From: Tepidanaerobacter syntrophicus
Lineage (GTDB): Bacteria > Bacillota > Thermosediminibacteria > Thermosediminibacterales > Tepidanaerobacteraceae
Assembly (NCBI RefSeq): GCF_001485475.2
Contig: NZ_DF977002.1
Span: 1 to 64,000 of the forward strand
Direction: 5' to 3'
Length of the DNA stretch: 64,000 nt
Positions 35,490-49,744 of this stretch are shown in pieces. Made by a program: the position numbers and the translations under genes. The notes beneath the pieces were generated by a model. It worked only from the letters and a program-made list of their open reading frames with translations. It ran no database searches and was not told where the DNA came from. Every line of letters begins with the position of its first letter. Position 1 is the stretch's first letter.

Positions 35490-36860
35490 CTATTCAGATG
35501 AAAACAAATTTAAATAGATTGCGTATTCAATTCGCTTTTTCTGGAGTTCGCAAGTAATATGATAGGGTTTTTTCATATCGCCGCAAATTAGTAAATTGTT
35601 AGCATTGCATCCTCCGCTGCAAAAGTATCTGGCCCAGCACTTGGAACATTCTTCTTTTGCAAAGACATGTGTATCCTTCAGTATATCCACAATTTTTTGG
35701 TCAAGCTTTCCGTCAGCCACATTTCCCATTAAAAACTCATCTTGCCCTACAAACTGGTGGCATGGGTATATGTCTCCCGAAGGAGTTACCGCAAGGTAAT
35801 CTCTGCCTGCTCCACAGGCCCATACTCTTTTATATACACATGGCCCATTATATATATCTATGTTAAAATGATAGAATTTAAAGGGTAATTTACCGGTTTT
35901 TTTACGGTTCATGTATTCCTTGGCAATTTCATCGTACTGTTTCCATAAAGTATCTAAATCTTTATCTTCTAAAAGATAATCCCCTTCTTTTCCAACAACC
36001 GGTTCGAGAGATATTTCACGAATCCCAAGGTTTGCAATATGAAAAACATCTTTTGCAAAATCAAGATTGTGCTTTGTAAAAGTACCTCTTACATAATATT
36101 CTTTGTTATCCTTTTCTCTAAGTTCCACAACCCTTTTTATATTAGGCACTATTTTATCATAACTGCCACTGCCGTCTGCCCTCACTCGAATAAAATCGTT
36201 TACTTCTTTTCTGCCATCAAGGCTTAAAACTATGTTGTCCATATTCTCATGGAGATATTCAATGGTTTCATCGTCTAGCAGCACTGCATTTGTTGTTATT
36301 GTGAAATGAAATCTTTTACCCCATGTTTTTTTGAGTATACGCGCATAAGAAATAACTTCTCTTATAGTGTCCATAGCAAGCAATGGCTCACCGCCAAAAA
36401 AGTCAACTTCCACATCTTCCATGTCTCCCGAATTTTCTGCAAGAAATTCTAGGGCTTTTTTACCTACTTCGCTGCTCATTATTTCTCTTTTGCCGTGATA
36501 ATCTCCCTTTGACGCAAAGCAATATTTGCAGCGTAAATTGCAGTCATGGGCAACGTTAAAACAAAGAGCTTTTACGTACTGCCTTGTATCTAGTTTGTCT
36601 AGAATAGCATTTGTATCCAAGTTGCTAAAAAGATATCCTTCGGTTTCCATTGCCTTAATTTCTTTTAAGGCTTCCTCTATCTCAAGCTTTGAATACTTGG
36701 TTTTAAGCTTTGCGATTATATCATTATTACTCAAAGTGTTATAATAATCCAGTACATCATACGTTATATTATCTACCTCAAAAATCGAGCCGCTGTTTAC
36801 ATCCAAGACTAGATTTTTGTCAAATACTCTAAATTTATGAATCTGGCCTGCCAAATACAT
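35490..36860 (-). CDS. scfB: SCIFF peptide maturase (radical SAM/SPASM thioether synthase)
   Basis: A 456-residue radical SAM enzyme of the TIGR03974 type, which forms Cys-to-Thr thioether bonds in the SCIFF precursor. Residues 1-95 form the peptide-binding (RRE-like) N-terminus, C107/C111/C114 (CNLRCKYC) bind the SAM cluster, VDFFGGEPLL follows, and the SPASM auxiliary Cys residues are in the last third (GPCVYKRVWACGAGRDYLAV, YPCHQF, CSKCWARYFCSGGCNANNL). The 45-residue precursor gene scfA is normally just upstream but I find no such frame in 36861-37038. ATG with AGGAGAGG. Confidence 0.9.
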   Translation of the reverse strand: MYLAGQIHKFRVFDKNLVLDVNSGSIFEVDNITYDVLDYYNTLSNNDIIAKLKTKYSKLEIEEALKEIKAMETEGYLFSNLDTNAILDKLDTRQYVKALCFNVAHDCNLRCKYCFASKGDYHGKREIMSSEVGKKALEFLAENSGDMEDVEVDFFGGEPLLAMDTIREVISYARILKKTWGKRFHFTITTNAVLLDDETIEYLHENMDNIVLSLDGRKEVNDFIRVRADGSGSYDKIVPNIKRVVELREKDNKEYYVRGTFTKHNLDFAKDVFHIANLGIREISLEPVVGKEGDYLLEDKDLDTLWKQYDEIAKEYMNRKKTGKLPFKFYHFNIDIYNGPCVYKRVWACGAGRDYLAVTPSGDIYPCHQFVGQDEFLMGNVADGKLDQKIVDILKDTHVFAKEECSKCWARYFCSGGCNANNLLICGDMKKPYHITCELQKKRIEYAIYLNLFSSE

Positions 36861-36958
36861 CCTCTCCTACTGTTTTTTGCTTTTAACTGATTAAGTTTCT
36901 CCTAATTTTAACATAAAACCTTTTTGGTTTAAAGTTTGATTTTGATGTCGTATAAAAA

Positions 36959-36996
36959 ATAAGCACTTTGCGGTTTTTACACCACAAAGTGCTTAT
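36959..36996. terminator. Terminator after the transglutaminase gene
   Basis: A 12-bp stem, ATAAGCACTTTG with CAAAGTGCTTAT, followed on the minus strand by six T. It separates the riboswitch-controlled gene from scfB. Confidence 0.85.
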
Positions 36997-37038
36997 TGTT
37001 TTTCTATGTATATAATTACCCTTATTAAACCCCTCTAG

Positions 37039-37839
37039 CTAATATTCTTTCTCTTTTTTAAATTCATTTGCATTTTTCTTAAATGAAACTGCTTTACCGC
37101 TTTTTGACATTATGGAATCATAACATGCATCAACTGTAATCCAGCCTTGATTTTGAAGATATACTTCATTCCATGCATGATACTCGCTTACGTCATTTTT
37201 ATAGCCCTTGACAAGTTTTGCCGGTATGTTAATACTCCTAAGCATTGCAGCATAAAGTGCCGCATAGTCAAAACATATACCTTTTTTTGTGGAAAGCGTT
37301 TCTTCCACTGAGGGTATGTAATTACTGTTAAGGCTTTTGACCTTATCTTTGTCATACTCAAAGTTTTTTACTATGTAATCATATATGGCATATGCTTTTT
37401 GCTCATCGGTGCTTAAGTTTTCTGAAAGCTTTGCAGCCATCTTAGCCGCTTCCCCGTTTTTATCCCAGTAAATCGGAGATGCTGACTGTAAAAAAGGCAA
37501 TTTTTCGTCTGCTAATTTAACCTCTATATCTTTGCTGTCTTTAGGCATGTACTTGTTGCTGTCAATATACTCCAACAGCGTCAGTTTGTATGTGCCTGAA
37601 CCCATCTGAAGCGGAAGTGTTTGCCCAACATTATTTACATCGTAAAAATAACTTACATTGTTCTTTTGAATCATTACCTTTATTTTTTTATCTTTCAGCG
37701 CCTGATTTACCTTTACTATTCCAAGTTCTGCATCGCTTAAATCAAATACATCTGCCTGGCTTGCAAGAGGTTTGTTTAAAATTGGAAGCATAAACAAAAA
37801 ACACATCAAAAGGCAGAGTATCCTCTTTAGTTTAAGCAA
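37039..37839 (-). CDS. Secreted transglutaminase-fold protein
   Basis: About 266 residues. A signal peptide (basic start, hydrophobic LCLLMCFLFMLPIL, cleavage probably near ASQA) precedes a domain of unknown fold and a transglutaminase/protease-like core with triad C189 (KKGICFDYA), H221 (EYHAWNEVY) and D237 (ITVDACYDS). Such proteins can be cysteine peptidases or cross-linkers; the sequence does not decide. The start is TTG 37839, 9 nt after GGAG: an ATG 11 codons earlier lies inside the riboswitch. It has its own promoter and a c-di-GMP-I riboswitch, and stands at the end of a surface-protein locus, so it may process or cross-link those proteins. Confidence 0.88.
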   Translation of the reverse strand: MLKLKRILCLLMCFLFMLPILNKPLASQADVFDLSDAELGIVKVNQALKDKKIKVMIQKNNVSYFYDVNNVGQTLPLQMGSGTYKLTLLEYIDSNKYMPKDSKDIEVKLADEKLPFLQSASPIYWDKNGEAAKMAAKLSENLSTDEQKAYAIYDYIVKNFEYDKDKVKSLNSNYIPSVEETLSTKKGICFDYAALYAAMLRSINIPAKLVKGYKNDVSEYHAWNEVYLQNQGWITVDACYDSIMSKSGKAVSFKKNANEFKKEKEY

Positions 37840-37848
37840 AATAAAACT

Positions 37849-37936
37849 CTCCTTTCGGTAGCTGGCTGCCATCTTGCGAAGGCCCTCTAGCTTTGCGTCC
37901 CCGCGTTTCCACGAGTTTGCCTTTATCGTTTGAAAG
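37849..37936 (-). promoter_or_regulatory. c-di-GMP-I (GEMM-I) riboswitch
   Basis: On the minus strand the conserved GEMM-I blocks occur in order: AAAGGCAAAC, a helix capped by a GAAA tetraloop (CTCGTG-GAAA-CGCGGG), GGACGCAAAGC, GGGCCT, then ATGGCAGCC and CTACCG closing the aptamer. The outer strands CTTTC (37932-37936) and GAAAG (37852-37856) can pair, and GAAAG overlaps the AAAGGAG Shine-Dalgarno of the following TTG. Ligand binding that stabilises this P1 helix would hide the site, so an OFF switch acting on translation is likely. The aptamer call is strong; the direction of control is inference. Confidence 0.92.
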
Positions 37937-37982
37937 TTTAACTAAAAAAAATTCTCTCGAATCAAATATTCAATTTAGGCTA

Positions 37983-38011
37983 ATTTTACCATAATTTACA
38001 TAGATTTTCAA
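37983..38011 (-). promoter_or_regulatory. Promoter of the riboswitch leader
   Basis: TTGAAA (38006-38011 as TTTCAA on the plus strand), 17-bp spacer, TAAAAT (37983-37988). It starts just past the sortase terminator, so the transglutaminase has a separate transcript. Confidence 0.8.
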
Positions 38012-38012
38012 G

Positions 38013-38043
38013 CACAAAAAAAACCAGGCTATATATTCTCACC
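38013..38043 (-). terminator. Sortase gene terminator
   Basis: A 7-bp stem AATCAGG with CCTGGTT, followed by a run of T on the minus strand. It overlaps the stop codon of the sortase gene. Confidence 0.75.
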
Positions 38044-38673
38044 TGATTCCAAAAGGTTAGCTCTTACTATTAATCTTGGGTAAGGTTTCCTGCTGTAATC
38101 GCACGTAATAAGAGTTAAGAGTTTTTTGTCCTTTTGCGGCAGCATCACCCAGGTATCTTCTGCCTCAACAAGAAATGTCTCGGATACTACATAAGTACAT
38201 GTTTTATCCTTTACTATAATCTCGATTTTATCTCCTTTTTTAAGTTCATTTAATCTGTTAAACTGCCTGCCGTAACTCCGGCTCCGATGTGCCGAAATGC
38301 AGTAGTTGCCTATATCTCCAGGATTACCCGTGCCGGATACTGAAGCTGCCGAAATATCAAGATTGGTTTTTGTTGCGCCTTTTAATATGGGCAAGAAAAT
38401 ATTTATTTTATCAATTTTTAGCATGCCTTCCATATGAGAGTTTATATATTCTATAAGATAATCATTTTTTTTGCTTGCAAGCGGCGCAGAAGTATCTTCT
38501 TTCGGTGCTTCGTCTGGATAATCTCCCAGATCTTCCATTGTCTTGTTCCATGTTTCAATAAGCTTTTTCTGTTGATAATCGAAGTAGGCTTCTTTTAGTT
38601 TCGGATAAGATATTAAAAATATGCCGGACAAAATTAGTATTACAGCAATAAACCTTTTCATAATCCTCACCAT
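38029..38673 (-). CDS. Sortase, probably class D
   Basis: A 214-residue membrane-anchored transpeptidase: N-terminal helix (FIAVILILSGIFLIS), linker, then a sortase barrel with H129 (ISAHRSRSYGRQF), C191 (LTLITCDYS) and R200 (KPYPRLIVRAN). Size and the single N-terminal anchor fit class D, often linked to sporulating Firmicutes. The likely substrate is the MPKTG protein 83 nt upstream. Start uncertain: the first ATG lacks a site, while ATG 38661 has GGTGAGG only 3 nt away. A strong hairpin directly ahead may limit its expression. Confidence 0.9.
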   Translation of the reverse strand: MVRIMKRFIAVILILSGIFLISYPKLKEAYFDYQQKKLIETWNKTMEDLGDYPDEAPKEDTSAPLASKKNDYLIEYINSHMEGMLKIDKINIFLPILKGATKTNLDISAASVSGTGNPGDIGNYCISAHRSRSYGRQFNRLNELKKGDKIEIIVKDKTCTYVVSETFLVEAEDTWVMLPQKDKKLLTLITCDYSRKPYPRLIVRANLLESGENI

Positions 38674-38679
38674 CTTTAA

Positions 38680-38719
38680 AAATTTGCCTGGATTATATTG
38701 TAAAATATATTCCAGGCAA
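38680..38719 (-). terminator. Terminator or attenuator in front of the sortase gene
   Basis: On the minus strand TTGCCTGGA and TCCAGGCAA pair, with further A/T pairs inside the loop, followed by ATTTTT. The T-run ends only 7 nt before the sortase ATG. The sortase mRNA would come from readthrough or need antitermination; no separate promoter is visible between. Confidence 0.8.
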
Positions 38720-38755
38720 TATATAGGGGATGTTGGTTATAACAAGTTAAGCACT

Positions 38756-39580
38756 TCACTTTCTTCTTATGGTCAAGCTGGCTCCTGCAACAATCGCTAC
38801 AATGCCTGCTATATAATATATATATGGAAGTTCTTCGCCTGTTTTCGGCATTGCCGGTGCTCCCATAGGAACTTCTTCAATAGGTATTTCAATAGGGGCA
38901 GCTTCTTGAGGGGCCTCCTCAGGAATTTCTATTTCAGGAGGTATTGGCTCTCCTTCCGGAACGGGCTCCTCTTCCACTTCAACCGGAGGTTCTTCTATCG
39001 GTTCTTCTTTTTTACCGCCTCCGCCGCCTCCTCCTCCGCCGCTAGTTTCTGCGGTAAAAATCCATCTCACTTCTGCCGTAGCATTTTGAAACTCATTTCC
39101 TGTTTCAGGACCCGGAAGTTCAATAGTTGCAATTAGATTTCTACTTTCTGACGAGGCAAACCTTCCAAGGCTTATATTGCTGCTTATATCTCCAATACCA
39201 CCAGAACTTTCGCTGTTTGCTCCGGTAGCAGGACCCCGGTAAATAACTTCACCTTGATATGAAATAGTAAGTCTTAGTTGTTTTAACAAATCGGCGCCTG
39301 TAGGCTCATCTCCGATTCTTTCAGCGCGCATATAGAGAGTGAAGGGCCTGCTGTAATTATTTGTTATCTTCAGCGTTCGTGTTATTGCATCGCCCGGATT
39401 CATGCGCCCTAGGTCAAAAAGTTTTCCGCCTTCCGGCACTAAGACAAGTCCTGAAGAATCGCCTCTAAGTTCCACATCGTCGGCAGCAAAAACTCCTTCT
39501 GCACCATACATCGTAAAAACACTAGCTGCAAAAAACGAGACCAAAAGCACTATGAGATATTTTTTTATATTTTTATTCAC
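38756..39580 (-). CDS. MPKTG-type cell-wall anchored protein
   Basis: About 274 residues. Signal peptide (YLIVLLVSFFAASVFTMYGAEGVFA), a beta-rich TasA-neighbour-type domain (about 35-175, with the MNPGDAITRTLKITNNYSRPF pattern), a run of nine Gly, an acidic Pro/Glu stalk, and a C-terminal sorting signal MPKTG, hydrophobic helix and RRK tail. The first sorting residue is Met instead of Leu. Two GTG starts are possible; I choose 39580, with GGAGG 9 nt upstream. Likely a base or linker protein that the sortase attaches to peptidoglycan. Confidence 0.87.
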   Translation of the reverse strand: MNKNIKKYLIVLLVSFFAASVFTMYGAEGVFAADDVELRGDSSGLVLVPEGGKLFDLGRMNPGDAITRTLKITNNYSRPFTLYMRAERIGDEPTGADLLKQLRLTISYQGEVIYRGPATGANSESSGGIGDISSNISLGRFASSESRNLIATIELPGPETGNEFQNATAEVRWIFTAETSGGGGGGGGGKKEEPIEEPPVEVEEEPVPEGEPIPPEIEIPEEAPQEAAPIEIPIEEVPMGAPAMPKTGEELPYIYYIAGIVAIVAGASLTIRRK

Positions 39581-39634
39581 CTTCACTACCCTCCTTTGTC
39601 GGGGGGTGAATTTTATTCACCTCTAAGGTGGTGG

Positions 39635-39662
39635 CCAAGGCATGCAAGACTGCATGCCTTGG
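39635..39662. other. Perfect 12-bp hairpin between tasA-like gene 2 and the MPKTG gene
   Basis: CCAAGGCATGCA and TGCATGCCTTGG with a 4-nt loop. There is no T-run on either side, so it is not a standard terminator. It could stabilise the 3' end of the tasA-like mRNA and so set unequal levels within one operon. Confidence 0.55.
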
Positions 39663-39687
39663 AGGTTATGCTGCTTGATTTTAGGTC

Positions 39688-40278
39688 TTATTCAGGTGTG
39701 CTTTCGCTCCATGCTTCAACGCCGTCTGGCAAAGAGGTAATTCCGAACGCATCTTTATACGCCTCATGAGATGCTTGAACGGCTTCAGCTTCGACGTCAA
39801 CTTTAAGGGTTTTTCCTTGATATTCATTGCCTGTAGTTGGTCCTGCAATTGTCACACTGTCCAAAAGTAATTCTGTTTCAACGCCCTGATTCATTATCTT
39901 GTAGTAATAGTAGTACCCGCCAGAGGCGATCCATTTATCAGAATTGATTATATTTAGTGTAACATTTGTTGTTGAAAGTGTATTATCTGGTATAAACTCT
40001 TCTCCGTCAAGGGCGCCCCAAACCGGCGTTAATTTGACCCTGACATATGTTCCTTTTGAACCTGTGCTTTTAATACTTACATCCTTATTTGTTGTATCTC
40101 CGGGGTTCCAATTTGTTATGTCTTGAAAGTCATGCTCATTAATTTCAATTGCAACAGTTCCTGCTGTAAATTTATTATCGGCTGTCTGACTGTCCGTAAA
40201 CCAAGCCATAGTTCCGCCTACCACGAGAAGAGCAGCCAGTGAAAATACTAGTAAACCTATTAACAAATTCTTTCTCAT
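39688..40278 (-). CDS. TasA/camelysin-family secreted protein, copy 2
   Basis: A 196-residue protein of the TasA/CalY (M73) family, whose members form extracellular biofilm fibres. SipW-type signal peptide (LLIGLLVFSLAALLVVGGTMAWFTD) and the family core FTAGTVAIEI, NWNPGD, VSIKSTGSKGTYVRVKLTPVW. A tyrosine-rich GGYYYYYKIMN strand and a C-terminal AEAVQASHEAYKDAFG block follow. ATG with GGAGG. It is a close tandem copy of the gene 89 nt upstream, differing mainly in the middle. Confidence 0.92.
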   Translation of the reverse strand: MRKNLLIGLLVFSLAALLVVGGTMAWFTDSQTADNKFTAGTVAIEINEHDFQDITNWNPGDTTNKDVSIKSTGSKGTYVRVKLTPVWGALDGEEFIPDNTLSTTNVTLNIINSDKWIASGGYYYYYKIMNQGVETELLLDSVTIAGPTTGNEYQGKTLKVDVEAEAVQASHEAYKDAFGITSLPDGVEAWSESTPE

Positions 40279-40367
40279 CTTAAAATCCTCCTTAAAATTT
40301 TTATTTTCGTTTTAAACTAAACACGCTTTGTCTTTGATTGTTTAAATATTGCATAGAGGAATATTCT

Positions 40368-40937
40368 CTATTCTGTCCACGGCTCTATACCCGTCGGCAT
40401 ATTACTTAGCCCCCATGCATCTTTATATGCTTCATGAGATGCCTGAACAGCTTCAGCTTTGACATTTACGGTAAGTTTTTTGCCTTGATAATCATCTCCT
40501 GTCAAACTTCCTATAATCTCAACTTTTGAAAGAAGTGGTTCGGTAACAGCTCCTGCGGCTAATATATGTTTGTAATAGTACCATCCGTCTCCGCCGTCTA
40601 CCCAATGCGTTCCTAACTCTCCATCAGCAAAGATAAGATTTACATTGTTTATTGGAAGATTTCCCTCCCATACAGGATTTATACTTACTCTTACATATGT
40701 CCGTTTTGATCCTAGGCTCTCAACCTTCACTTCTTTGTCGTATATGTCGCCGGGATTTACATTTTCTTTTACCACAGGATTTGTTTGGCCATTTTCTAGT
40801 ATTTGAATTTTTACTGTTCCTGCAGTAAATTTATTACTAGCTTCTTTTGTATCCGTAAACCAAGCCATGGTTCCGCCTACCACTAGGAGGGCGACAAGTG
40901 AAAATACAAGCAGGCCTATGAGAAAACTTTTTTTCAT
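40368..40937 (-). CDS. TasA/camelysin-family secreted protein, copy 1
   Basis: A 189-residue paralogue of the next gene. Shared signal peptide (FLIGLLVFSLVALLVVGGTMAWFTD), FTAGTVKIQI, NVNPGDIYDKEVKVESLGSKRTYVRVSINPVW and the same AEAVQASHEAYKDAWG end. The middle segment has diverged (WVDGGDGWYYYKHILAAG). Processed presumably by the SipW-type peptidase encoded just upstream, 107 nt away. ATG with AGGAGG. Copy 1 and copy 2 could be major and minor fibre subunits. Confidence 0.92.
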   Translation of the reverse strand: MKKSFLIGLLVFSLVALLVVGGTMAWFTDTKEASNKFTAGTVKIQILENGQTNPVVKENVNPGDIYDKEVKVESLGSKRTYVRVSINPVWEGNLPINNVNLIFADGELGTHWVDGGDGWYYYKHILAAGAVTEPLLSKVEIIGSLTGDDYQGKKLTVNVKAEAVQASHEAYKDAWGLSNMPTGIEPWTE

Positions 40938-41044
40938 TCTAAACCCTCCTCAGGTTTTTAAGGTTTTATCTTTCTTCTCTAACTCTAATACTGCAGTTTT
41001 TAATAATTTTAACCCGCAATCCCTAATTCTTCCCGTTTACCCCT

Positions 41045-41641
41045 CTATGCTTCTTCTTTTGTAATCTCCCCCTCGTTTATTTTCCGTTCGCTCTTATTTT
41101 TGTCCCCTTTTCTTTCACTTACTATGATTTTCGCCAGTTCTACTGCGAGAAAGAGGGTCCATGTAGCAAGTAAAATCAGAATTCCGCCTCTTGATCTTGC
41201 AAAGTAAAATGCGTAACCGATGTAGGGTATTGTAAAAACAACTTTTCCTATTAAGTGATTGGCGCTTACCGGCATTGGGTCTTCGACTTCATTGGCATCG
41301 CCCTTTGTCTTGAAAAAGAGCCCGTCCTTTTCATATATATCGATTACCCGGTGTGTGGTAGTATTTTCACCGTCCTGCTTTCCTCTAAAAGTAATAACAT
41401 CTTGAGCCTTTATTTCTTTTGGACCTGCCGGTTTTACTATCACAAGGCTTCCTGTTTTGATAGTGGGATTCATGCTTCCGCTCATAACTATATACATTTG
41501 GTAGCCTCCTATCGACGGAGCCTTTCCTGTAATTTTGCTCTGCACTACAAAAATCAGGAGCACTATAACCGCGCAGGTAAGCAGAATCAATATTGTATTT
41601 GATAGAAAACCTTTTACTTTGCAAACCGTGTTCTTTTTCAT
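41045..41641 (-). CDS. sipW: Signal peptidase I, SipW (ER) type
   Basis: A 198-residue signal peptidase with two membrane helices (about 13-33 and 150-172). It is of the ER type: catalytic S56 in MSGSMNPT and H97 in TTTHRVI in place of the usual Lys. SipW of B. subtilis is required to process TasA, and the gene order here (sipW then two tasA-like genes) supports the same role. A long charged C-terminal tail follows the second helix. Starts 12 nt after the vWA gene. Confidence 0.93.
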   Translation of the reverse strand: MKKNTVCKVKGFLSNTILILLTCAVIVLLIFVVQSKITGKAPSIGGYQMYIVMSGSMNPTIKTGSLVIVKPAGPKEIKAQDVITFRGKQDGENTTTHRVIDIYEKDGLFFKTKGDANEVEDPMPVSANHLIGKVVFTIPYIGYAFYFARSRGGILILLATWTLFLAVELAKIIVSERKGDKNKSERKINEGEITKEEA

Positions 41642-41653
41642 GCTGCCATCTCT

Positions 41654-44600
41654 TTACTCTTCAGATTCTTCTGTTGATGCTAAAAGTTTTTCTTTATCAG
41701 GTAAAACAGCTTTCAGATCCATCGAGCTCAGTAATACTTCTGCACTGCTCTTTTGTCCTGCAGTGCTTGAACCGCTGTAAGACACTGCAATTGTAAAGGA
41801 GTTGTTTTTTTCTGTCTCGTCTCTAAACCAGGAATCATTGACTTTTTTGTTGGTTGCTGTTACAGTTACTGCAACATTATTTAAAATCATATCTCTTGTA
41901 ATTGTAAAACTTTGGTTTGTTAAATTTGTTAAACTGTAATCCATAGGAACTGTTTCGCTTGCAGTATAGTTTCCCGGCCACAATCCGTCGATTATCTGTT
42001 GATCATTGTGTTTTACAAGTGTATTCCATTTTTTCCCTGAAGGGCCATTCACATGTATAGCGAACTCTTTTACAGTATCTATTCCATAATCACCGTTTTC
42101 AACAAACTTCTTTACAATTATCTTTCCCTTTTTTACTGTAACTGATATGCTATCAGTCGCTTTGCATCCATTAGCATCTGTTATTTGAATTGTATAGACA
42201 GCATCCTCTTCCGGCACAAGTGAAGGATTTGCACTCGTTGAAGTCCATGTAGAATCAGCGCTGCTTGTCCAAAGGTATGTGAATGGCGAATAACCATACA
42301 CCTGCAAGTTTTGGCCTATATTAATGGTATCTCCCACAACTATTATAGAGTCAGGCCCGGCTTCCACACCTATTACATTTACTGTTGGTATCGGGAAAAT
42401 TTTTTCTACATTGGGGGTACCGTTTATATCAGTATAGTGAAGCACAGCGCTTGTATTTGTCGGTAAATTATTGCCCATCACCCCGTCTTTTGCTTTAATC
42501 TTATAGCTTAACTCAGCTAATGTAGTTATTGTGCCGGGACTCCAGGTTATTGTCCGTGTTGACGGATTGTATGTTACTGTAGCATTTGGATTTGTCGTAA
42601 TGCTTCCGTCAACCAGCTCAAAGTTCTCATTAATTACATCGGTTACTACAGCATCGATTGCTGAATATCCGAGTAGTCCGGATATTGTATCGTAAATCCC
42701 TGATAAATCCGGTGCTCCGCTAGCTTCGTAATAACCGGAGTTCTGAGCCCATTGAAGAGTTTCCCTTGCAACAGTTCTGCTTTGGGTAGGCACTTGACTT
42801 ATAATCCCAACTGTAAAGACCATTGCCATGCTCCAACAACCCTGTCCTGCCGTATATGCCGCTATGGTATGCACATTGTGCCCTGTAGGTTCATTTGGTC
42901 CTGATGGATTTCCTATACTAGCTGTTGCCACACCATCCGTAAGCAAGACTATTACTTTATTAGCGTTTTGTCGGCCGTTGGTTTGTAAAATGCTTTTGGC
43001 TTTTAAAAATCCTGCTTCTATATTTGTTCCACCATTTGCAGTAATTCCGTCAATTGCATTTTTTACCGATGTAGCATTGCTTGAAAGCCCAATATTTTGT
43101 GTCGCATTAGAAGCCGAGCCTAGATCTCCAAGATACAAAGGACCTGCAAAAGAAACTACTGAAATGCGATTATTGCTGTCAGCTAAAATTGTGTCTGTAA
43201 ATTCTTTCGCGGCTTGTTTGGCATAGTAAAGTACAGTATGGCTGCCTGATACTCTATCATTCATACTGCCTGATCTATCTATTACTAAAACTACATCTAC
43301 AGGAGCCGGAGCAGGTGTGCCTGTTATCTGAAGTTTTACAGTGTAATTTCTGCACGGTGTAGCAGTAGTTGCTGTTTTGTTAACTTGTATCGTATCAGTG
43401 CCTGATGTGGCTGCTACAAGTTCCGGCATTATGACTGATTTAGGAGCCCCATAATCTAGAACGGTATCAGTTTGCAAACTCCTAAATGCTTTCAGCGAAG
43501 TTGCTGAATCCATGCCTGCGGGCCGTGGTAGTAACTCAAGAAACGGATCGTTTTCTATTGAGACTTCATAAGAAGTTGAAGCTTCTACAAGATTTGCTTC
43601 AAACTGGCATTGTGCTTTTGCCTGAATTACAAGTGACGACTCAACAAAGTATGGATCTATGGGAATTTCACCATCAATATGATATTCTCCGCCTGGTGTA
43701 AGTTCTGATATTGTCTCATTTGAGCTTTTAAGGCTGCTGTTTACATCCACTGATATATTTTGAAGTTGAACATCACCTGTATTTAAAACTACAACATGGT
43801 AATTAATGCTTTCGCCTACATTATAAAAATCATTGTCTGTAGAAATTGAGATACTTAAAGCGGGATTGTAAACTACTGGTGGAATAATTGGCAATTCTTC
43901 TACAGGCACTAAAGGATCTAATACTTCCTCAGGCAGCACAACTTCTGGTGGTATGACTTCTCCACCTTCTTCGGCAGGTATCTCTCCCTCGGGAGATTCC
44001 GGTTCTTGGGGCTGTCCGTCAGGATTTTCTGGAGTTGTCGGATCAGTAGGTACGGTTTCCTCGTTAGAACCTGTCTCTCCTGTGTCTTCAGAAGGTTCAC
44101 CATTTGTATCTTCTTCAGTGGTTGCCGGCTCTTCCGGCGCTGTTTCATCTTCAGGATTAGTAACCTGTCCCGGAAGTTCAGTATCTGGATCTGTAGGTTC
44201 TTCTGGTAGATCTTCATCAGGTGTTTGATCTGACGGACCTTCTATCTCGGGAGAACCACCTTCTTCTGAAGGATTTGCCTCTTGATCATCAGGTAGTATT
44301 TCATCTTCAGGATTAGTAACTTGTCCTGGGATTTCGGTATCCGGATTTGTAGGTTCTTCCGGTTGAGCCTCATCAGGTGTTTGATCTGACGGACCTTCCG
44401 GCTGCACTTCTTCATCACCTGCTACCGGGTCCTCTGTTTCGGGAGAACCGCCTTCTTCAGAATTACCCGTGCCCTGATCTTGAGTTATTTCACCGGGAAC
44501 TTCAGAACTTACAGAATCTATTGACTGCGTATCCGTATTTACCAATTCGTTAATTGAAGGTGTAGCATCTGTGCCAGATTCATCGGCAGAAACTACAGTA

Positions 44601-44668
44601 ATTGCCGGTGTGAAGATAAGCAATATCATAAGAATTGTGGCTAAAACTTTCTTTGAGGTACTTATCAT
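41654..44668 (-). CDS. Secreted von Willebrand factor A domain protein
   Basis: A 1004-residue exported protein. Signal peptide 1-28; acidic Pro/Glu/Thr-rich stalk 30-265 with two copies of a 33-residue unit (92-124, 144-176); CARDB-like domain 268-372; vWA domain about 456-665 with a complete MIDAS (D464-x-S466-x-S468, T548, D578); beta region with SEDS-unrelated repeats to 760; PKD/Ig-like domain 765-848; SpaA/DUF5979-like domain 849-940. No LPXTG or C-terminal membrane helix, so retention on the surface must be non-covalent or through partners. ATG with GGAGG. Likely an adhesin. Confidence 0.88.
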   Translation of the reverse strand: MISTSKKVLATILMILLIFTPAITVVSADESGTDATPSINELVNTDTQSIDSVSSEVPGEITQDQGTGNSEEGGSPETEDPVAGDEEVQPEGPSDQTPDEAQPEEPTNPDTEIPGQVTNPEDEILPDDQEANPSEEGGSPEIEGPSDQTPDEDLPEEPTDPDTELPGQVTNPEDETAPEEPATTEEDTNGEPSEDTGETGSNEETVPTDPTTPENPDGQPQEPESPEGEIPAEEGGEVIPPEVVLPEEVLDPLVPVEELPIIPPVVYNPALSISISTDNDFYNVGESINYHVVVLNTGDVQLQNISVDVNSSLKSSNETISELTPGGEYHIDGEIPIDPYFVESSLVIQAKAQCQFEANLVEASTSYEVSIENDPFLELLPRPAGMDSATSLKAFRSLQTDTVLDYGAPKSVIMPELVAATSGTDTIQVNKTATTATPCRNYTVKLQITGTPAPAPVDVVLVIDRSGSMNDRVSGSHTVLYYAKQAAKEFTDTILADSNNRISVVSFAGPLYLGDLGSASNATQNIGLSSNATSVKNAIDGITANGGTNIEAGFLKAKSILQTNGRQNANKVIVLLTDGVATASIGNPSGPNEPTGHNVHTIAAYTAGQGCWSMAMVFTVGIISQVPTQSRTVARETLQWAQNSGYYEASGAPDLSGIYDTISGLLGYSAIDAVVTDVINENFELVDGSITTNPNATVTYNPSTRTITWSPGTITTLAELSYKIKAKDGVMGNNLPTNTSAVLHYTDINGTPNVEKIFPIPTVNVIGVEAGPDSIIVVGDTINIGQNLQVYGYSPFTYLWTSSADSTWTSTSANPSLVPEEDAVYTIQITDANGCKATDSISVTVKKGKIIVKKFVENGDYGIDTVKEFAIHVNGPSGKKWNTLVKHNDQQIIDGLWPGNYTASETVPMDYSLTNLTNQSFTITRDMILNNVAVTVTATNKKVNDSWFRDETEKNNSFTIAVSYSGSSTAGQKSSAEVLLSSMDLKAVLPDKEKLLASTEESEE
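44141..44395 (-). repeat. Two 99-bp in-frame repeats in the vWA gene
   Basis: Positions 44141-44239 and 44297-44395 are about 85-90% identical and encode the repeated unit with EGPSDQTPDE, PDTE and PGQVTNPEDE. They form part of the stalk. Such repeats can change number by slippage or recombination. Confidence 0.8.
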
Positions 44669-44697
44669 ATTTAATTTTCACCTCCTTGTAACAAAAG

Positions 44698-44943
44698 TCA
44701 TGCTTCATCAGCTTCCCACGAACGAAATTTCACCAACCCCTTCCCTTCTTTTTCTAAAGCTTCTTCCATTAAATGAATAAGTTCCATTAAACTTCTGAAA
44801 GGGACTGTCTTTTCGTCTTCCAGCCACTGAGTATATCCCTGAACACTTGCGTTCTCACAATACAGCACTTTGATTACAAATGTCGTTGTGGAAGCAGTTT
44901 GTTTTATGCTTTTATCATCATTTGTAATCAGTTCCTTGTTCAT
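44698..44943 (-). CDS. Conserved small protein, first gene of the fibre operon
   Basis: An 81-residue cytosolic protein I cannot name. The core FVIKVLYCENASVQGYTQWL followed by EDEKTVPFRSLMELIHLM resembles, from memory, short Clostridia proteins with an F-x-V-K-V-x-x-x-x-N-x-x-x-Q-G pattern, but this is not verified. No signal peptide, no membrane helix. ATG with AGGGGG 8 nt upstream. It ends 30 nt before the vWA gene, so it is probably cotranscribed with it. Confidence 0.7.
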   Translation of the reverse strand: MNKELITNDDKSIKQTASTTTFVIKVLYCENASVQGYTQWLEDEKTVPFRSLMELIHLMEEALEKEGKGLVKFRSWEADEA

Positions 44944-45502
44944 TATGATGCCCCCTGCACTTCTAGTAGTTTTTCTATTTTTATTGTATCAGGGAGGTGT
45001 TTTATTAGACTTTCATTTGAATGTTATTACAATTTTTTCTTAATTTTATTTAAATTTCATTACAGGCACAATTGAATTACAGATAACAGGATTCTTTACT
45101 GCATTTAAAATGGCAGATAATATAAATATTTATAGATTTTTGCAGAAAAAATGATTTAGACATAAAAAAAGACCTCGTTATCCTTCAAAATAAGTATAGG
45201 CTCATAGAGGGCTAGATCTTTATGGAGCTAATTTGACTTGCAATAGATGGTTTCATGTTTGCACAATAACAGTAAGATACAATAGAAAGAAAAGGAGAAA
45301 ACATAGCGGGGTGAGACTAACATATCTTGCAATAAAAGAGAAAAATATGGGACGACGAGATTGGCCAGCAGGACACGAAGAGGGGTAGAATATGAAATGA
45401 TATTTGCTTGTTAGGATGGCAAGTTTATAGTAACAAAAAAATCCGGCTTAGAAAGCTTAGAAAGCCGGAAAAAATCAATTAATTATATTATTAATTTAAG
45501 AT
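44944..45502. other. Intergenic region upstream of the fibre operon
   Basis: About 560 bp with no convincing gene. It should hold the fibre operon promoter: a TACAAT -10 candidate lies at 44983-44988 on the minus strand with no good -35, which would suit an activator-dependent promoter. On the plus strand AAAGGAG precedes a GTG-started frame of about 25 codons (45310-45388, ending GRRDWPAGHEEG), perhaps a gene remnant. A terminator lies at 45434-45475. Confidence 0.5.
45434..45475. terminator. Terminator after the BTAD regulator gene
   Basis: CCGGCTT with AAGCCGG, 12-nt loop, and a T-run on both strands after the stem. It ends the regulator transcript before the fibre promoter region. Confidence 0.85.
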
Positions 45503-46723
45503 TTATTGGATAAAAGATTCTTTGGCACCTACGGGCTGAAATGAAATTTCCAGAGAAATTTGCGGCGTAAGGAGCCTTTTTTTAAATTCTTCATTAATCC
45601 TATTTCCTATATTTTGGAGATTTTCTTCCGCTATATCAGTAAGCAAAACAACTACTCGAGATTTGTTCCACCAGCTAAATACATCTCCTTTGCGTAGAAA
45701 CCGGGCCAAGATTTCGTGTAAGATATTTTTTGCTACATCTATATCTTTGTCAGAACAATTACTGCCAGTTTCAATAATTGAAATCAAGCCTAAAAATTCT
45801 TTATCCCCGGATCTAAGTATCTTGCGGCGCTCAAAGTTATATATGGCTTTGAAATAATCCGGCTCGCAAAATAGCGCTCCGTTAATAACATCTTCATTTA
45901 TTATGGTATAGCTTATCTGTGTAAGATTCTTTTCAGGGTCATCTTCGCTGCCGGCAGTAATTTTGCGGTATATGGCTTTAAGCTCAGGCGTTGGTCTTAC
46001 AGACATTTCTTTATACAGTCTTGCAGTTATATAATTATAATGATTCAAGGCATTTTTATACTCATGTAATTCGATTAGTGCATCGAGAAAGTATACATGG
46101 AATGATTCTTCGAAAGGTTCATAATTGACTACTCTCTCATATATGTCTATTATATCCAGATATTCATTATTTTCCTTTAACAACTCAAAAAGTCTTAACA
46201 CGGACTGGACGAAAATACGATGATAGCGGCTCCGAAAAAGAAACGCCCATTCGCTATAGGGATTTTCTGCAAGAAACTCTCCCTTATATATATCTATTGC
46301 TTCTAAGTAAGCCTTTTTCGCCTTTTCAGGATTATCCACTCTTAAACTATCAGCTTCTTTTACCTTTTCCTCGAACTGAACAAAATCAATTGTGCAAGAA
46401 TCGCCGGGATCGAATATATAAAATCCGTTTTCGAAAATTATATCAAAGTAGTGCTTCGTCTCCTCGCTATTTATAAGTCCGACAGACTCAAGGCCTTTTC
46501 TAAGACGAAATATTTGAGTTCTAAGGGCATTTTTCGGATCTATAAAATCTGAATCAGGCCATAAACTCTCTATTATATCTTCCGGAACTAATTTCTTATT
46601 GTAATAAGTAATAAAATACTTTAACAATTCCAGATTCTTATTGTTTCGTTTGCTTTTTTTTAAAATTGACTCATCGTCAAGTTTTATGTCGAAATTACCA
46701 AATGTATTAATCTTTATAGTCAA
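45503..46723 (-). CDS. BTAD transcriptional regulator with degenerate GGDEF-like domain
   Basis: A 406-residue protein. Residues 1-105 are an OmpR/SARP-type winged helix (LRTQIFRLRKGLE), 110-255 a BTAD tetratricopeptide-like domain (DIYKGEFLAENPYSEWA, YEPFEESFHVYFLDAL). Residues 290-397 align by eye with a GGDEF domain: helix KAIYNFERRK, RFLRKGDVFSWW, then NKSRV where GGDEF should be, then VVLL. The catalytic motif is lost but R344-x-x-D347 lies exactly 5 residues before it, as in a c-di-GMP inhibitory site. TTG start with GGGGGGTG. It follows the GGDEF-HD-GYP gene by 73 nt. The GGDEF-like call is my inference. Confidence 0.8.
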   Translation of the reverse strand: MTIKINTFGNFDIKLDDESILKKSKRNNKNLELLKYFITYYNKKLVPEDIIESLWPDSDFIDPKNALRTQIFRLRKGLESVGLINSEETKHYFDIIFENGFYIFDPGDSCTIDFVQFEEKVKEADSLRVDNPEKAKKAYLEAIDIYKGEFLAENPYSEWAFLFRSRYHRIFVQSVLRLFELLKENNEYLDIIDIYERVVNYEPFEESFHVYFLDALIELHEYKNALNHYNYITARLYKEMSVRPTPELKAIYRKITAGSEDDPEKNLTQISYTIINEDVINGALFCEPDYFKAIYNFERRKILRSGDKEFLGLISIIETGSNCSDKDIDVAKNILHEILARFLRKGDVFSWWNKSRVVVLLTDIAEENLQNIGNRINEEFKKRLLTPQISLEISFQPVGAKESFIQ

Positions 46724-46796
46724 ACCGACACCCCCCTTTAAAACCCATTTTCTTCTTAGTCTGATTGTCTTTTTATCTCTATTTTAATTATAACAT

Positions 46797-48929
46797 TTAA
46801 AAGTGATACTTTATAAGAACTTTTTCTATAAAAACAGCTACAAGATCAGGATCATATTCCTTTCCCGCACCCTTCTTAAGTTCTTCCACTGCTTCATTTT
46901 GCGACAATGTTCTTGGGTAAGGTTTATAATTGGTCATAAAATCGTATGCATCAGCAATTGCTGCAATTCTTGCTTTCAGTGGTATTTCTTCGCCCTTTAA
47001 ACCCTTTGGGTATCCGGAACCATCCCAGTTTTCGTGATGCGCAAGTACGTATTGTGCAATTTCTGAAAAATCACCTACGCAGCTCAATATTCGATAGCCT
47101 ATTTCTGGGTGCCGTCTCATTTCTGCTATTTCTTCCTCTGTCAATGGACCGGTTTTATTTATAATTGATTTGTCTATTGCAACTTTGCCAATATCGTGAA
47201 GGAGGCCTATTGTTTTAAGCTCACTTAACTCTCTTGAGCTTAAAAGTATCTCCTTTCCTATGGCTACGCATAGATCGCTTACTCGTTTCGAATGTTTTTC
47301 TTCTAAAGGATGAGCTTCATATAAAGTTTTAACAATTGTTGAAATAGTCATATTTCGCATGCTAGAACTTTCGAACAACTTATTTTTATACATAAGATTT
47401 TCCGCTCTTTTTATGATTTCATTTATGTCTTCTTCTGCGGATTTCTTAACTTCCCACCCGCAAGAAATAGATAAATTTATTGAGCCTACCTTGGTATTGG
47501 CAGCTGCAATTACTATTCGGTCGATGACTTGCTTTACACCTTCTTCTGAAGTTTTTGGAAGCAAGACCGCAAATTCGTCACCGCCAATTCTAGCAATTAT
47601 ATCATCTCTTCTACAGGAAAGTCTTAAAGCATCTGCCGCTTTTTTTAGTATTTCATCTCCAAATTCATGTCCAAAGGCATCATTTGCCAGCTTTAGACCG
47701 TTTATATCTGCCATAATTACAGCAATAGGCAAATTTCTATCAGTATCAAGCCTGCGCAACTCCTCTTCAAAAAATCTGCGGTTATAAAGGCCGGTTAATT
47801 GATCATGGTAGCTTAAATACTCTATTGATTTTAATGTAGCTTCGAGAAGCTCTTTTTCATTTATCAGCATTTCTTCATTTCTCTTGCGAATAATTCGAAT
47901 CCATGCATTACTAAACAAGATAGTAAGACTTGACTCATCATATTTGGTATAATCTGAGTCTTTGTTTGCAACGGCTGTCACCATAACAATTTTACCTTTG
48001 TCAAATATCGGCACCGATAAGTATCTGGATAGATTGACATAATTGTTTTGAAAATCAAGATTGTCGAAACAATTTATAACTATCGATTGTTTTTCCTTTA
48101 TAACATTTGCCCAGAAGCCTGCCTTTTCAAAATCTACTTTAATATTATTTTTTTCTAATTTGCACTCGTTCAATATGTTGTCAGAAATACAAGCAAGTTC
48201 AATTTCATTACTGTCCTCATTATAAATGAAAGCATATGCCAATTTGCTTTCTGTTATCTTTAGCGCCTCATTTAATGTGAAATAAATTAATTCCTCTATG
48301 CTATTAAAATCTTGCTGGAGTATTTTTATTAAGCTTTCGCTCAGCTCAATGTTCTGTCTTGCAAGTTGTTCAGCTTTTTTTCGTATTATGGATAAACCCA
48401 AATGTTTAAGGTAAAATCTAATCCTATTATGTTTGCTGAAATTTTTGCCTTTTGGCATCAGAAAAATTACATTTCCCAAAAGAATGCCATCTTTTGTGAT
48501 ATTTGCAACAGCTATCTGGCCTATGTCAAGTCCGTTCATCATTTTTGAAATCTCAGACTGTATAAATTCTTCGCCAAGCAGTTCGTCAAGTGAAGAGAAA
48601 ATAATTATATCATCCGAAATTTGTTCGCTTTTGCATTTTGTGTAGTCAGTAAGCCTTCTGCAAAACAGTGTACAGTACTCCGAAAGCGATCTAGCCTCAC
48701 TTATGTTAAAGTTCGGGCCGCATGCAACTTTAATCACGAATTTTTCGCCGGAAACATCAAGCAAATTAACAAATACGCAGTTAGCTTTTGATACTAATAA
48801 AAGGGCATTTGCGACACTTTGATAGTCCATATTTTCTAACATTTGTAAGAACTCAAGGTCCAATTCGAAAAAATCTTTTGGTACTTTTTTAGGCGGGCCA
48901 TTAACCCTCTCTGCGAAATTATCTATCAT
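46797..48929 (-). CDS. GAF-GAF-GGDEF-HD-GYP c-di-GMP turnover protein
   Basis: A 710-residue soluble protein with both synthetic and hydrolytic c-di-GMP domains. Two GAF-like sensor regions (about 35-185 and 205-345), a GGDEF domain (375-490) with intact GGDEF at 449-453 and RxxD at 440-443, and an HD-GYP domain (530-705) with H578/D579 and the GYP motif at 639-641. So it can in principle make and degrade c-di-GMP depending on a GAF ligand. ATG with AGGAGG. Probably cotranscribed with the BTAD regulator. Confidence 0.93.
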   Translation of the reverse strand: MIDNFAERVNGPPKKVPKDFFELDLEFLQMLENMDYQSVANALLLVSKANCVFVNLLDVSGEKFVIKVACGPNFNISEARSLSEYCTLFCRRLTDYTKCKSEQISDDIIIFSSLDELLGEEFIQSEISKMMNGLDIGQIAVANITKDGILLGNVIFLMPKGKNFSKHNRIRFYLKHLGLSIIRKKAEQLARQNIELSESLIKILQQDFNSIEELIYFTLNEALKITESKLAYAFIYNEDSNEIELACISDNILNECKLEKNNIKVDFEKAGFWANVIKEKQSIVINCFDNLDFQNNYVNLSRYLSVPIFDKGKIVMVTAVANKDSDYTKYDESSLTILFSNAWIRIIRKRNEEMLINEKELLEATLKSIEYLSYHDQLTGLYNRRFFEEELRRLDTDRNLPIAVIMADINGLKLANDAFGHEFGDEILKKAADALRLSCRRDDIIARIGGDEFAVLLPKTSEEGVKQVIDRIVIAAANTKVGSINLSISCGWEVKKSAEEDINEIIKRAENLMYKNKLFESSSMRNMTISTIVKTLYEAHPLEEKHSKRVSDLCVAIGKEILLSSRELSELKTIGLLHDIGKVAIDKSIINKTGPLTEEEIAEMRRHPEIGYRILSCVGDFSEIAQYVLAHHENWDGSGYPKGLKGEEIPLKARIAAIADAYDFMTNYKPYPRTLSQNEAVEELKKGAGKEYDPDLVAVFIEKVLIKYHF

Positions 48930-49032: not shown

Positions 49033-49572
49033 TTACATGTCTAAGATTTTGGCGAGAACACCGGTCTCGTACTTAAATTTTTGAACTATATTTTGAATCT
49101 GCTCATCGGCCAGTTTGTCGTGGAGAATAATAACCTTCTTGTTTGCACCTCCTATATTGTAGGTAAAAGAGATTTTGTGCTGAGTTATCTCTATGCTGTC
49201 TAAAAATATTTTATCTTTGTTAAATTTGACCATCTTCGAGTCTGAAAGTATGCCAAAGCATGATATTGTCACAAATTCAGGATTTAATTTTGTTACCTTC
49301 GGTACAACTTTTGCATCCCTTTCTTCGATTCCAACTATTTGAATATGCAATATTTCATTTTCCAAAATCAGTTTCGCATCACTGTATTCTTTGTATTCAG
49401 CTATGAGCAAGATAATAAGTATTAGTATAATGCCGGCTAAAGCAAGAAAAAGAAAACTGGCATAGGGCCAATCCTTCATGCTTATAGTCAGTAAAAGGGC
49501 TGCACCAGTAAATAAGCATATTGAGGCGAGGATAAATTTTAGCCGTAATTTTATAATATTCAAAATAGACAC
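49033..49572 (-). CDS. Membrane protein of unknown function
   Basis: A 179-residue protein with two membrane helices at the start (FILASICLFTGAALLLTIS and ASFLFLALAGIILILIILLI) and a cytosolic beta-rich domain (60-179) of PH-like appearance. I do not recognise the family. It lies 103 nt upstream of the GGDEF-HD-GYP gene on the same strand and may be cotranscribed with it. Confidence 0.7.
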   Translation of the reverse strand: MSILNIIKLRLKFILASICLFTGAALLLTISMKDWPYASFLFLALAGIILILIILLIAEYKEYSDAKLILENEILHIQIVGIEERDAKVVPKVTKLNPEFVTISCFGILSDSKMVKFNKDKIFLDSIEITQHKISFTYNIGGANKKVIILHDKLADEQIQNIVQKFKYETGVLAKILDM

Positions 49573-49653
49573 ACCCTTTTATATATGTTGTCCCGTTCTT
49601 TTATTTTATAGTAATATAATAATGTAAAAAAGTCGCCACCTAAAAAGGGTGAT

Positions 49654-49700
49654 TTGTAAAAATCCCTATCACATTAATAGGGTGATAGGGATTTTTACAA
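49654..49700. terminator. Perfect 19-bp inverted repeat, bidirectional terminator
   Basis: Arms 49654-49672 and 49682-49700 pair exactly (TTGTAAAAATCCCTATCAC). The outer part of the stem is A/T-rich, so the T-run of a terminator lies within the extended stem on both strands. It follows the LuxR-type gene. Confidence 0.75.
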
Positions 49701-49744
49701 GTAATTTAGCTATAGAGCTATATTTTTATACAATTTTCGTCTCT

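Follow-up and report, generated by a model that had tools for sequence, protein, structure and literature searches.

A putative c-di-GMP-controlled TasA-type fibre locus with a BTAD-GGDEF-like regulator in Tepidanaerobacter syntrophicus

A ten-gene locus of Tepidanaerobacter syntrophicus is likely to encode a c-di-GMP-controlled, cell-wall-anchored fibre system of the TasA type; there are no binding or expression data. Tepidanaerobacter is a genus of heat-loving anaerobic bacteria. The regulator of the locus, a BTAD protein with a degenerate GGDEF domain (BTAD-GGDEF-like), may represent a family of c-di-GMP-responsive SARP proteins that has not been described before and extends across the phylum in clostridia-like Bacillota, a proposal that we hold with slightly better than even confidence. 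Members would bind 11-bp-phased TGTAACT-like repeats with the dedicated small partner sp81 and work with oppositely wired riboswitches of the same locus, so that fibres are on and the releasing enzyme is off. New elements are regulators without the GGDEF motif yet with RxxD, an 11-bp array at the fibre promoter, and the wiring of the enzyme leader versus the TasA leader.

Layout and proteins of the locus

The ten genes lie at 37039-48929 of the window (the whole 64-kb stretch of DNA that was analysed), all on the minus strand:

46797..48929, minus strand: GAF-GGDEF-HD-GYP protein, 710 aa (Pfam GGDEF 3.6e-36, HD_5 2e-36)
45503..46723, minus strand: SARP-type regulator, 406 aa (BTAD 9e-21 plus wHTH)
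44698..44943, minus strand: sp81, orphan cytosolic protein, 81 aa (three strands and one helix predicted)
41654..44668, minus strand: vWA adhesin, 1004 aa, MIDAS motif DRSGS (VWA_2 1e-15)
41045..41641, minus strand: SipW-type signal peptidase
40368..40937, minus strand: TasA/BsaA-like fibre subunit 1, SipW-dependent type
39688..40278, minus strand: TasA/BsaA-like fibre subunit 2, SipW-dependent type
38756..39586, minus strand: MPKTG (LPXTG-type) anchor protein, profile-related to the TasA-like subunits
38029..38673, minus strand: sortase, TLITC ... R motif (2e-28)
37039..37839, minus strand: secreted transglutaminase-fold enzyme (Transglut_core 7e-29; TTG start)
36958..36997, minus strand: terminator at the end of the enzyme gene

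An earlier note on this DNA had proposed this gene set; all of its families are borne out by open reading frames, Pfam and NCBIfam profiles and, for the GGDEF fold, structure. The note had also described the set as one co-oriented stretch. The shared strand holds, but terminator- and promoter-like sites divide the genes into three transcription units rather than one. The first unit comprises the GGDEF-HD-GYP (DGC) and BTAD genes and is ended by a terminator-like hairpin near 45470-45440. The second is the fibre operon; it starts at ~44980 and sp81 is its first gene, with 559 intergenic bp between the BTAD gene and sp81. The enzyme gene forms the third, with its own promoter-like site at 38011-37983. 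A SCIFF maturase gene adjoins the locus.

Lack of synteny between regulators and fibre genes in related genomes would have refuted the earlier reading; the gene order proved to be conserved. Four relatives (G001, G004, G006 and G009), members of distant families (L093, L108 and L113) and, furthest out, Tissierella sp. P1 (L145) all share the arrangement regulator-(sp81)-SipW-TasA-TasA-anchor-(sortase)-riboswitch-enzyme with Tepidanaerobacter. Two family members, G005 and G011, keep the riboswitches and SipW-TasA and have no close full-length regulator.

The vWA adhesin holds a GBS104-like tip-pilin Ig domain (2e-12). TasA/camelysin (Peptidase_M73) proteins are recognised by a SipW-dependent-type signal and an N-terminal domain; the fibre subunits meet this definition (TIGR04088, TIGR04090 and PF12389 above cut-off). 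The TasA equivalog model NF046066 gives only 36.5 and 30.4 bits against a cut-off of 450; the subunits are therefore family members, not TasA itself. The TasA-like and MPKTG proteins are only distant homologues of true TasA (E 0.018 against the solved TasA), and the MPKTG protein is the predicted wall anchor of the fibre. The sortase passes the general family cut-off (80.3 vs 39.35); class C (pilin) is its best model and is not reached (98.6 bits vs a cut-off of 160).

No family was matched by sp81 in profile searches, and its fold search gave no match at E <0.001. A marginal hit to AcrF2 was put down to chance (17.4 bits vs a cut-off of 27; 1 of 26 members). sp81 is almost confined to regulator-bearing genomes (12 of 13).

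Bifunctional GGDEF/HD-GYP proteins have both motif sets intact. This is the case for the 46797-48929 protein, in which GGDEF, the RxxD I-site, HDIGK and GYPKGLKGEEIP are all preserved; on these motifs it is predicted to be a c-di-GMP synthase/phosphodiesterase that should both make and break c-di-GMP. Its gene adjoins the BTAD gene in G001 and lies a few genes off in G109/L113. Direct adjacency is confined to the genus, with a nearby copy in G109, and the arrangement is conserved only at close range; production of c-di-GMP beside the fibre genes is the weak part of the earlier reading.

The BTAD regulator and its predicted operator

SARP proteins (AfsR/DnrI) carry an N-terminal wHTH followed by BTAD. 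The regulator fits this description: its N-terminal part (residues about 1-260) is an AfsR/EmbR-like wHTH plus BTAD (Pfam PF00486, PF03704). In a VIA-align comparison of the AF2 model (pLDDT 90.5), this part resembles AfsR (Z about 20) and EmbR (Z about 19). The C-terminus (about 280-406) is only marginally matched by the Pfam GGDEF family (0.012); the fold is clear from structure and profile, and 122 residues of the modelled domain superpose on GGDEF domains at 2.5 A (Z about 14).

Degenerate-GGDEF receptors retain the GGDEF fold and RxxD after loss of the active-site motif, and both properties are found here. The GGDEF motif is lost in all 58 regulators compared, and the I-site RxxD is kept in 56. 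The window regulator has RKGD (R344-D347) at this position; D347 is invariant across the 58 and R344 is present in 56. RxxD also occurs in seven of eight active cyclases compared, so its retention in the regulator is suggestive rather than proof. Sensing of c-di-GMP by the regulator is supported indirectly, by the retained I-site and the predicted SARP-type operator, without binding data.

Two elements lie between the regulator gene and sp81:

45000..45064, minus strand: six direct repeats, 11-bp period, predicted to be the operator at which the BTAD regulator binds
44983..44988, minus strand: promoter -10-like element TACAAT, just 3' of the repeats

SARP operators consist of 11-bp-period heptamer repeats upstream of the target -10. 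The array shows this layout, on sequence only and with no binding data: it is 7+4, as in SARP operators, and stops shortly before a -10 element that has no good -35 partner. The TACAAT element is likewise read from the sequence; its spacing from the repeats is identical in G001. The consensus across species is A-T-G/A-T/A-A-A-C/T-T plus spacer, with information in 7-8 columns and none in the spacer. The array has z = 7.4 at period 11 and at most 0.9 at periods 9, 10, 12 and 13. It gives the top period-11 peak of the window (45000-45054, score 193; next 142), and at 15/53 loci the top peak is no more than 600 bp from the regulator on its 3' side, vs 2.6 expected (other periods, 1-2). Phased A-tract curvature was rejected as the main cause, as repeats at four loci (L088, L092, L102 and L123) are TGTAACT/TGTGACT-like.

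c-di-GMP-I riboswitches are found at 21/56 BTAD-GGDEF-like loci vs 1.3 expected (16-fold excess, P = 4e-22) and at none of 20 BTAD-only control loci. The gene directly behind them encodes a TasA-like protein, the enzyme or another secreted protein. The remaining 35 of the 56 proteins have no riboswitch nearby, and many lie beside other secreted genes or none; the regulator family is therefore broader than fibres. A scan with the regulator found no relatives in viral contigs.

The riboswitch and the transglutaminase-fold enzyme

The leader of the enzyme gene contains the following elements:

37983..38011, minus strand: promoter-like site, TTGAAA-17-TAAAAT, TG before -10
37932..37941, minus strand: 5' arm of helix P0 (anti-Shine-Dalgarno)
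37853..37930, minus strand: c-di-GMP-I riboswitch aptamer, GGC subclass (RF03167 65.8 bits, RF01051 69.3 bits)
37842..37851, minus strand: 3' arm of helix P0, holding most of the Shine-Dalgarno GGAGAG (37852-37847)

Assignment to c-di-GMP-I calls for scores above gathering in the general and subclass models (RF01051, 35; RF03167, 59); both are exceeded. This is the only c-di-GMP-I aptamer found in the 2.43-Mb genome. A different ligand for the GGC subclass was considered and dropped, since the general model matches as well and the alignment retains the equivalents of G20 and C92, the bases that contact c-di-GMP. Sequence similar to the promoter-like site lies upstream of the aptamer in the same four relatives (G001, G004, G006 and G009), and an ATG at 37872 falls within the aptamer. 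RNA sensing of c-di-GMP, as the earlier note had inferred, is well supported by the aptamer match and by the enrichment at these loci.

When the leader is folded freely, with no model of the ligand, ON/OFF is left undecided, and covariation was therefore used. Across six leaders P0 is 96.7% paired although both of its strands vary, and the pairing collapses when slid; in Tissierella, 8/9 positions pair. The enzyme leader is accordingly a predicted OFF switch, in which the ribosome site would be hidden in the covarying helix; no ligand-free alternative fold has been demonstrated for it. Relatives have a c-di-GMP-I riboswitch at the TasA gene itself, and the 3' end of this riboswitch can pair with the ribosome site (P = 0.004 for the complementarity). 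By this complementarity the TasA leaders look like ON switches, opposite to the enzyme leader; the pattern is seen in about 4 of 10 TasA leaders and is absent in Tissierella. Neither TasA gene of the window has a riboswitch, which leaves the regulator as the sole basis of fibre control there.

The Cys-His-Asp residues of the enzyme are invariant (C189, H221, D237). Transglut_core and DUF553 are the only families above cut-off, and among the PDB profile matches are both transglutaminases (6g49, factor XIII) and 3isr, a putative cysteine protease. LapG belongs to DUF920 (BTLCP) and the enzyme does not; the comparison of how the two work is unaffected. A c-di-GMP-I riboswitch lies directly upstream of all seven detectable enzyme orthologues in the family, including two in genomes without a close regulator match.

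Proposed mechanism and known systems

At high c-di-GMP, the ligand would bind the I-site of the regulator, which would then bind the 11-bp repeats and recruit RNA polymerase for transcription of sp81-vWA-SipW-TasA-TasA-MPKTG-sortase. SipW would trim the subunits, and the TasA-like subunits would polymerise, with strand exchange by analogy with TasA; the vWA protein would be the tip adhesin, and the sortase would fix the MPKTG subunit to the wall. High c-di-GMP would also bind the riboswitch, P1 and P0 would close over the ribosome site, and the Cys-His-Asp enzyme would not be made. When c-di-GMP drops, fibre transcription would stop and the enzyme would be made; it could then cleave the fibres and so release or remodel them, following the logic of LapG/PPEP-1, or cross-link them. 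Least certain are whether the regulator activates or represses, what sp81 does and which reaction the enzyme catalyses.

It is also conceivable, but rather unlikely, that the fibre locus and the riboswitch control of the enzyme are real but the BTAD protein is no c-di-GMP sensor. The dead GGDEF domain would then serve dimerisation or protein interaction, and another input (e.g. sp81 or the upstream DGC protein) would activate the fibre promoter. The distribution of sp81 would suit such a partner, a degenerate GGDEF domain need not bind a ligand to function, and RxxD is in any case widespread among GGDEF domains. However, both I-site residues are conserved although the active site is gone throughout, and this subfamily is linked to c-di-GMP riboswitches whereas other BTAD proteins are not. 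As sequence does not fix the sign, the regulator could instead repress the fibre promoter until relieved by c-di-GMP, or c-di-GMP could turn activation off. We consider this improbable: SARP proteins that use tandem 11-bp heptamers activate transcription (PMC5930380, PMC10936776), the position of the array relative to the -10 is the SARP layout, and an enzyme predicted to be switched OFF agrees with fibres that are on at high c-di-GMP.

A more serious possibility, which we nonetheless do not favour, is that the enzyme matures or cross-links fibres rather than releasing them, and is made at low c-di-GMP for another purpose. The fold spans both chemistries, as the mixed PDB matches illustrate; a cross-linker is less sensible under OFF logic opposite to that of the fibre genes, and LapG and PPEP-1 are precedents for release enzymes at low c-di-GMP (PMC3032545, PMC11477304). 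Chance placement in riboswitch-rich clostridial genomes is scarcely credible. c-di-GMP-I is indeed common in the phylum (55/61 relatives) and usually controls surface proteins, but the single copy in this genome, the 16-fold excess, the empty controls and the seven of seven enzyme genes already contradict it.

If c-di-GMP does act through both regulator and riboswitch, the locus places a single surface organelle under two receptors, one a protein and one an RNA, and supplies a ready-made operator and reporter for testing. It would also define a TasA fibre system with sortase anchoring in thermophilic syntrophs, bacteria whose attachment to partner cells is important in biogas communities. Known clostridial c-di-GMP control of surface proteins is mostly by riboswitches; no c-di-GMP-responsive SARP regulator was found in the literature searched.

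In Clostridioides difficile, sortase-anchored surface proteins (CD2831/CD3246) and a secreted enzyme (PPEP-1, CD2830) are oppositely controlled by c-di-GMP riboswitches, with a class I OFF switch for the release enzyme (PMC11477304). PPEP-1 is, in contrast, a metalloprotease, the adhesins are under class II riboswitches, and there is no TasA/SipW fibre or BTAD-GGDEF-like protein. The LapG-LapA-LapD system of Pseudomonas shares a Cys-His-Asp transglutaminase-fold enzyme, surface adhesion and c-di-GMP control; unlike the riboswitch-controlled Tepidanaerobacter enzyme, whose locus lacks LapD, LapG is a periplasmic DUF920 protein held by LapD (PMC3032545). A statistical link between tandem c-di-GMP-I riboswitches and transglutaminase-like yebA/COG1305 genes in Bacillota is already recorded; SipW, TasA, sortase and regulator are unmentioned there, and there is no OFF/ON analysis (PMC12452182).

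SipW and TasA-family subunits are shared with Bacillus tapA-sipW-tasA and B. cereus sipW-tasA-calY, but these operons lack the sortase, vWA tip, riboswitch and SARP-GGDEF regulator, and identity is remote (PMC4292775, PMC9674648). Clostridium perfringens sipW-bsaABCRSD combines SipW with BsaA-type fibre proteins, the NCBIfam family of the window subunits; it differs in its two-component and temperature control and dispensable sortase, and a c-di-GMP element is unreported (PMC7395162). The SARP activators AfsR, EmbR and PimR have the same wHTH-BTAD fold and 11-bp-phased direct-repeat operator (PMC5930380). Their C-termini are ATPase/TPR, FHA or cyclase-LAL; the window regulator, in contrast, has a degenerate GGDEF domain with an I-site and a fibre operon as its predicted target.

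Gene content, order and conservation

The earlier note described a fibre locus at 37039-48929, and all of its elements were found there on the minus strand by sequence and profile annotation:

46797-48929, minus strand: GGDEF-HD-GYP gene
45503-46723, minus strand: BTAD regulator, 406 aa, with degenerate C-terminal GGDEF domain
45000-45054: 11-bp direct-repeat array between regulator and sp81
44698-44943, minus strand: sp81, an 81-aa protein
38029-44668, minus strand: vWA adhesin, SipW, two TasA-like proteins, MPKTG protein and sortase
37853-37930, minus strand: c-di-GMP-I aptamer, the sole copy found in the 2.43-Mb genome
37039-37839, minus strand: secreted transglutaminase-fold enzyme; start codon taken as TTG (37839), since the ATG further 5' falls inside the aptamer

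The genes are co-oriented, as claimed, but the stretch divides into three units. The GGDEF-HD-GYP and BTAD genes end at a terminator-like hairpin; the second unit runs from sp81 through the sortase; riboswitch and enzyme form the third, served by a separate promoter-like site and closed by a strong terminator.

Directly 3' of the enzyme lies a SCIFF-peptide radical SAM maturase (35490-36860; TIGR03974, 600 bits), kept in relatives G004 and G009. At 49033-51187, upstream of the GGDEF-HD-GYP gene, are a familyless 179-aa membrane protein and an MFS-like protein ending in a LuxR HTH, both kept in Tepidanaerobacter sp. EBM-38. A 47-nt near-perfect palindrome 5' of the 179-aa gene (49654-49700, TTGTAAAAATCCCTATCAC...GTGATAGGGATTTTTACAA) is possibly a two-way terminator. 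The window also holds a RAGATH-18 RNA above gathering score (13969-14030, 53.4 bits).

Searches for the regulator covered 61 relatives and, with an HMM, 398 genomes from the phylum; the gene neighbourhoods retrieved were annotated using profiles built from the window's proteins. The closest named relative, EBM-38, has a regulator 68% identical to the window's.

Gene order at regulator loci (G, genome; L, fetched locus)
G004 and G009: BTAD-sp81-secreted protein-SipW-Tas-Tas-MPKTG-sortase-enzyme-radical SAM
G001 (EBM-38): same locus, divided between two contigs, single TasA-like gene
L093, L108, L113 (distant families): most of the locus kept
Tissierella sp. P1: BTAD-vWA-SipW-Tas-riboswitch-Tas-LPXTG-riboswitch-enzyme
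L095, L097, L103, L105, L109: second form, LPXTG proteins and sortase without SipW or TasA

Loss of synteny between regulator and fibre genes would have refuted the proposal; it is kept in G001, G004, G009, L093, L108, L113 and Tissierella sp. P1. The claim that c-di-GMP is produced beside the fibre genes has weaker backing: the GGDEF-HD-GYP gene adjoins the regulator only within the genus, and in G109 it is merely near. The vWA-SipW-Tas-LPXTG-sortase cluster at locus L150 is intact and has neither riboswitch nor enzyme; it is preceded by a 33-residue match to the regulator N-terminus (9080-9178), possibly a decayed regulator.

The regulator, its predicted operator and sp81

In an AF2 model of the regulator (58 sequences, pLDDT 90.5), residues 1-261 match AfsR and EmbR (Z 19-20) and residues 285-406 match GGDEF domains (Z about 14, 2.5 A); the sequence profile independently recovers GGDEF structures (4urg, E 6e-9). 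The GGDEF motif is lost in 58/58 relatives, usually replaced by N-x-x-Q-[FY], while RxxD, five residues ahead of it, is retained in 56. Receptors with a degenerate GGDEF domain show this sequence pattern. A receptor role is not thereby proven, since RxxD also occurs in 7/8 active cyclases here; c-di-GMP binding is inferred.

SARP regulators bind heptamers with 4-bp gaps, an 11-bp repeat (PMC5930380). The array at 45000-45054 has the top period-11 score across the 64-kb window (193; runner-up 142), with z = 7.4 against dinucleotide shuffles versus at most 0.9 at periods 9, 10, 12 and 13. In 15 of 53 loci (2.6 expected) the best period-11 site of the locus is no more than 600 bp 3' of the regulator; for other periods this holds in 1-2. 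Aligned in phase, the repeats have 7-8 informative columns (A-T-[GA]-[TA]-A-A-[CT]-T) and three nearly uninformative ones; this consensus is descriptive because phases were picked to maximise agreement.

Pfam has no entry for the sp81 family (F-[IV]-[IV]-[KR]-[IV] ... QG ... FRS-x-[LM]-E), and a fold search gave no match. It is confidently present in 13/199 genomes, 12 of them with the regulator, usually immediately 5' of surface-protein genes. The protein probably acts as a dedicated partner. In EBM-38, sp81 is truncated at both contig ends (L019, G001:C103, 75-251; L140, G001:C59, 1-234); the L140 fragment starts with IS110-transposase-like residues, which suggests an insertion element.

Riboswitches and the surface enzyme

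A covariance model made from 38 aptamers gave 37 c-di-GMP-I matches, several tandem, in 0.93 Mb of regulator neighbourhoods. Matches occur at 21/56 regulator loci versus 1.3 expected from the count per genome (P = 4e-22), and at 0/20 control loci with BTAD proteins lacking the GGDEF-like domain, where a single 16-bit match is noise. The observed count and the background were obtained with two different models of one RNA, and four riboswitch-free loci, partial or divergent, were not counted; at this margin neither point matters. The linkage of the locus to c-di-GMP is statistically strong. Aptamers lie immediately 5' of genes for TasA-like proteins, the enzyme or other secreted proteins, and directly upstream of 7/7 enzyme orthologues of the family. 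G005 and G011, without a close regulator match, have tandem aptamers heading an enzyme-SipW-Tas-Tas cluster; tandem c-di-GMP-I 5' of COG1305 enzymes in Bacillota is already tabulated (PMC12452182).

Other arrangements were seen. Locus L025 (G041), of BTAD-sp81 type, has one c-di-GMP-II and two tandem c-di-GMP-I elements (12761-12847, 15151-15235, 15348-15435) preceding small secreted proteins, not TasA-like ones. L103 (11670-12047) and L105 (7833-8220) have triple tandem c-di-GMP-I with terminator-like hairpins between, divergent from BTAD-sp81-LPXTG. The only c-di-GMP-I aptamer of G002, a genome without the locus (L173, G002:C1:940569-940669), and the second of G001 (L177, G001:C4:47610-47710) precede a 454-aa membrane protein, by its look a chemoreceptor; this element is absent from the window genome.

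Six enzyme leaders share a 10-bp helix, lying outside P1, that surrounds the aptamer and holds the Shine-Dalgarno sequence (window arms 37941-37932 with 37851-37842). Its cells are 96.7% paired, two pairs vary on both sides and three on one, and pairing collapses when the partner strand is slid; in Tissierella 8/9 positions pair. Ligand-stabilised P1 should therefore shut the ribosome site, a predicted OFF switch. In TasA leaders the aptamer 3' end shows complementarity to the Shine-Dalgarno region, which suggests ON switches. Own pairs exceed swapped ones (P = 0.004, n = 10, two with identical segments), and the fit is best in G004, G009, L093 and L113. The window's TasA genes lack such a riboswitch leader. 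The direction of control is inferred.

Cys189, His221 and Asp237 of the enzyme are invariant in 12 relatives, and transglutaminases and putative cysteine proteases are among its profile matches. Release or remodelling at low c-di-GMP is slightly favoured over cross-linking, by analogy with LapG (PMC3032545) and PPEP-1 (PMC11477304).

The view that no described system has this set held for the literature searched. The individual parts are of known kinds; what was not found described there is their combination: a BTAD regulator of SARP type with degenerate GGDEF domain and predicted operator, a TasA-type fibre anchored by sortase, and a predicted opposite-sign riboswitch on a surface enzyme.
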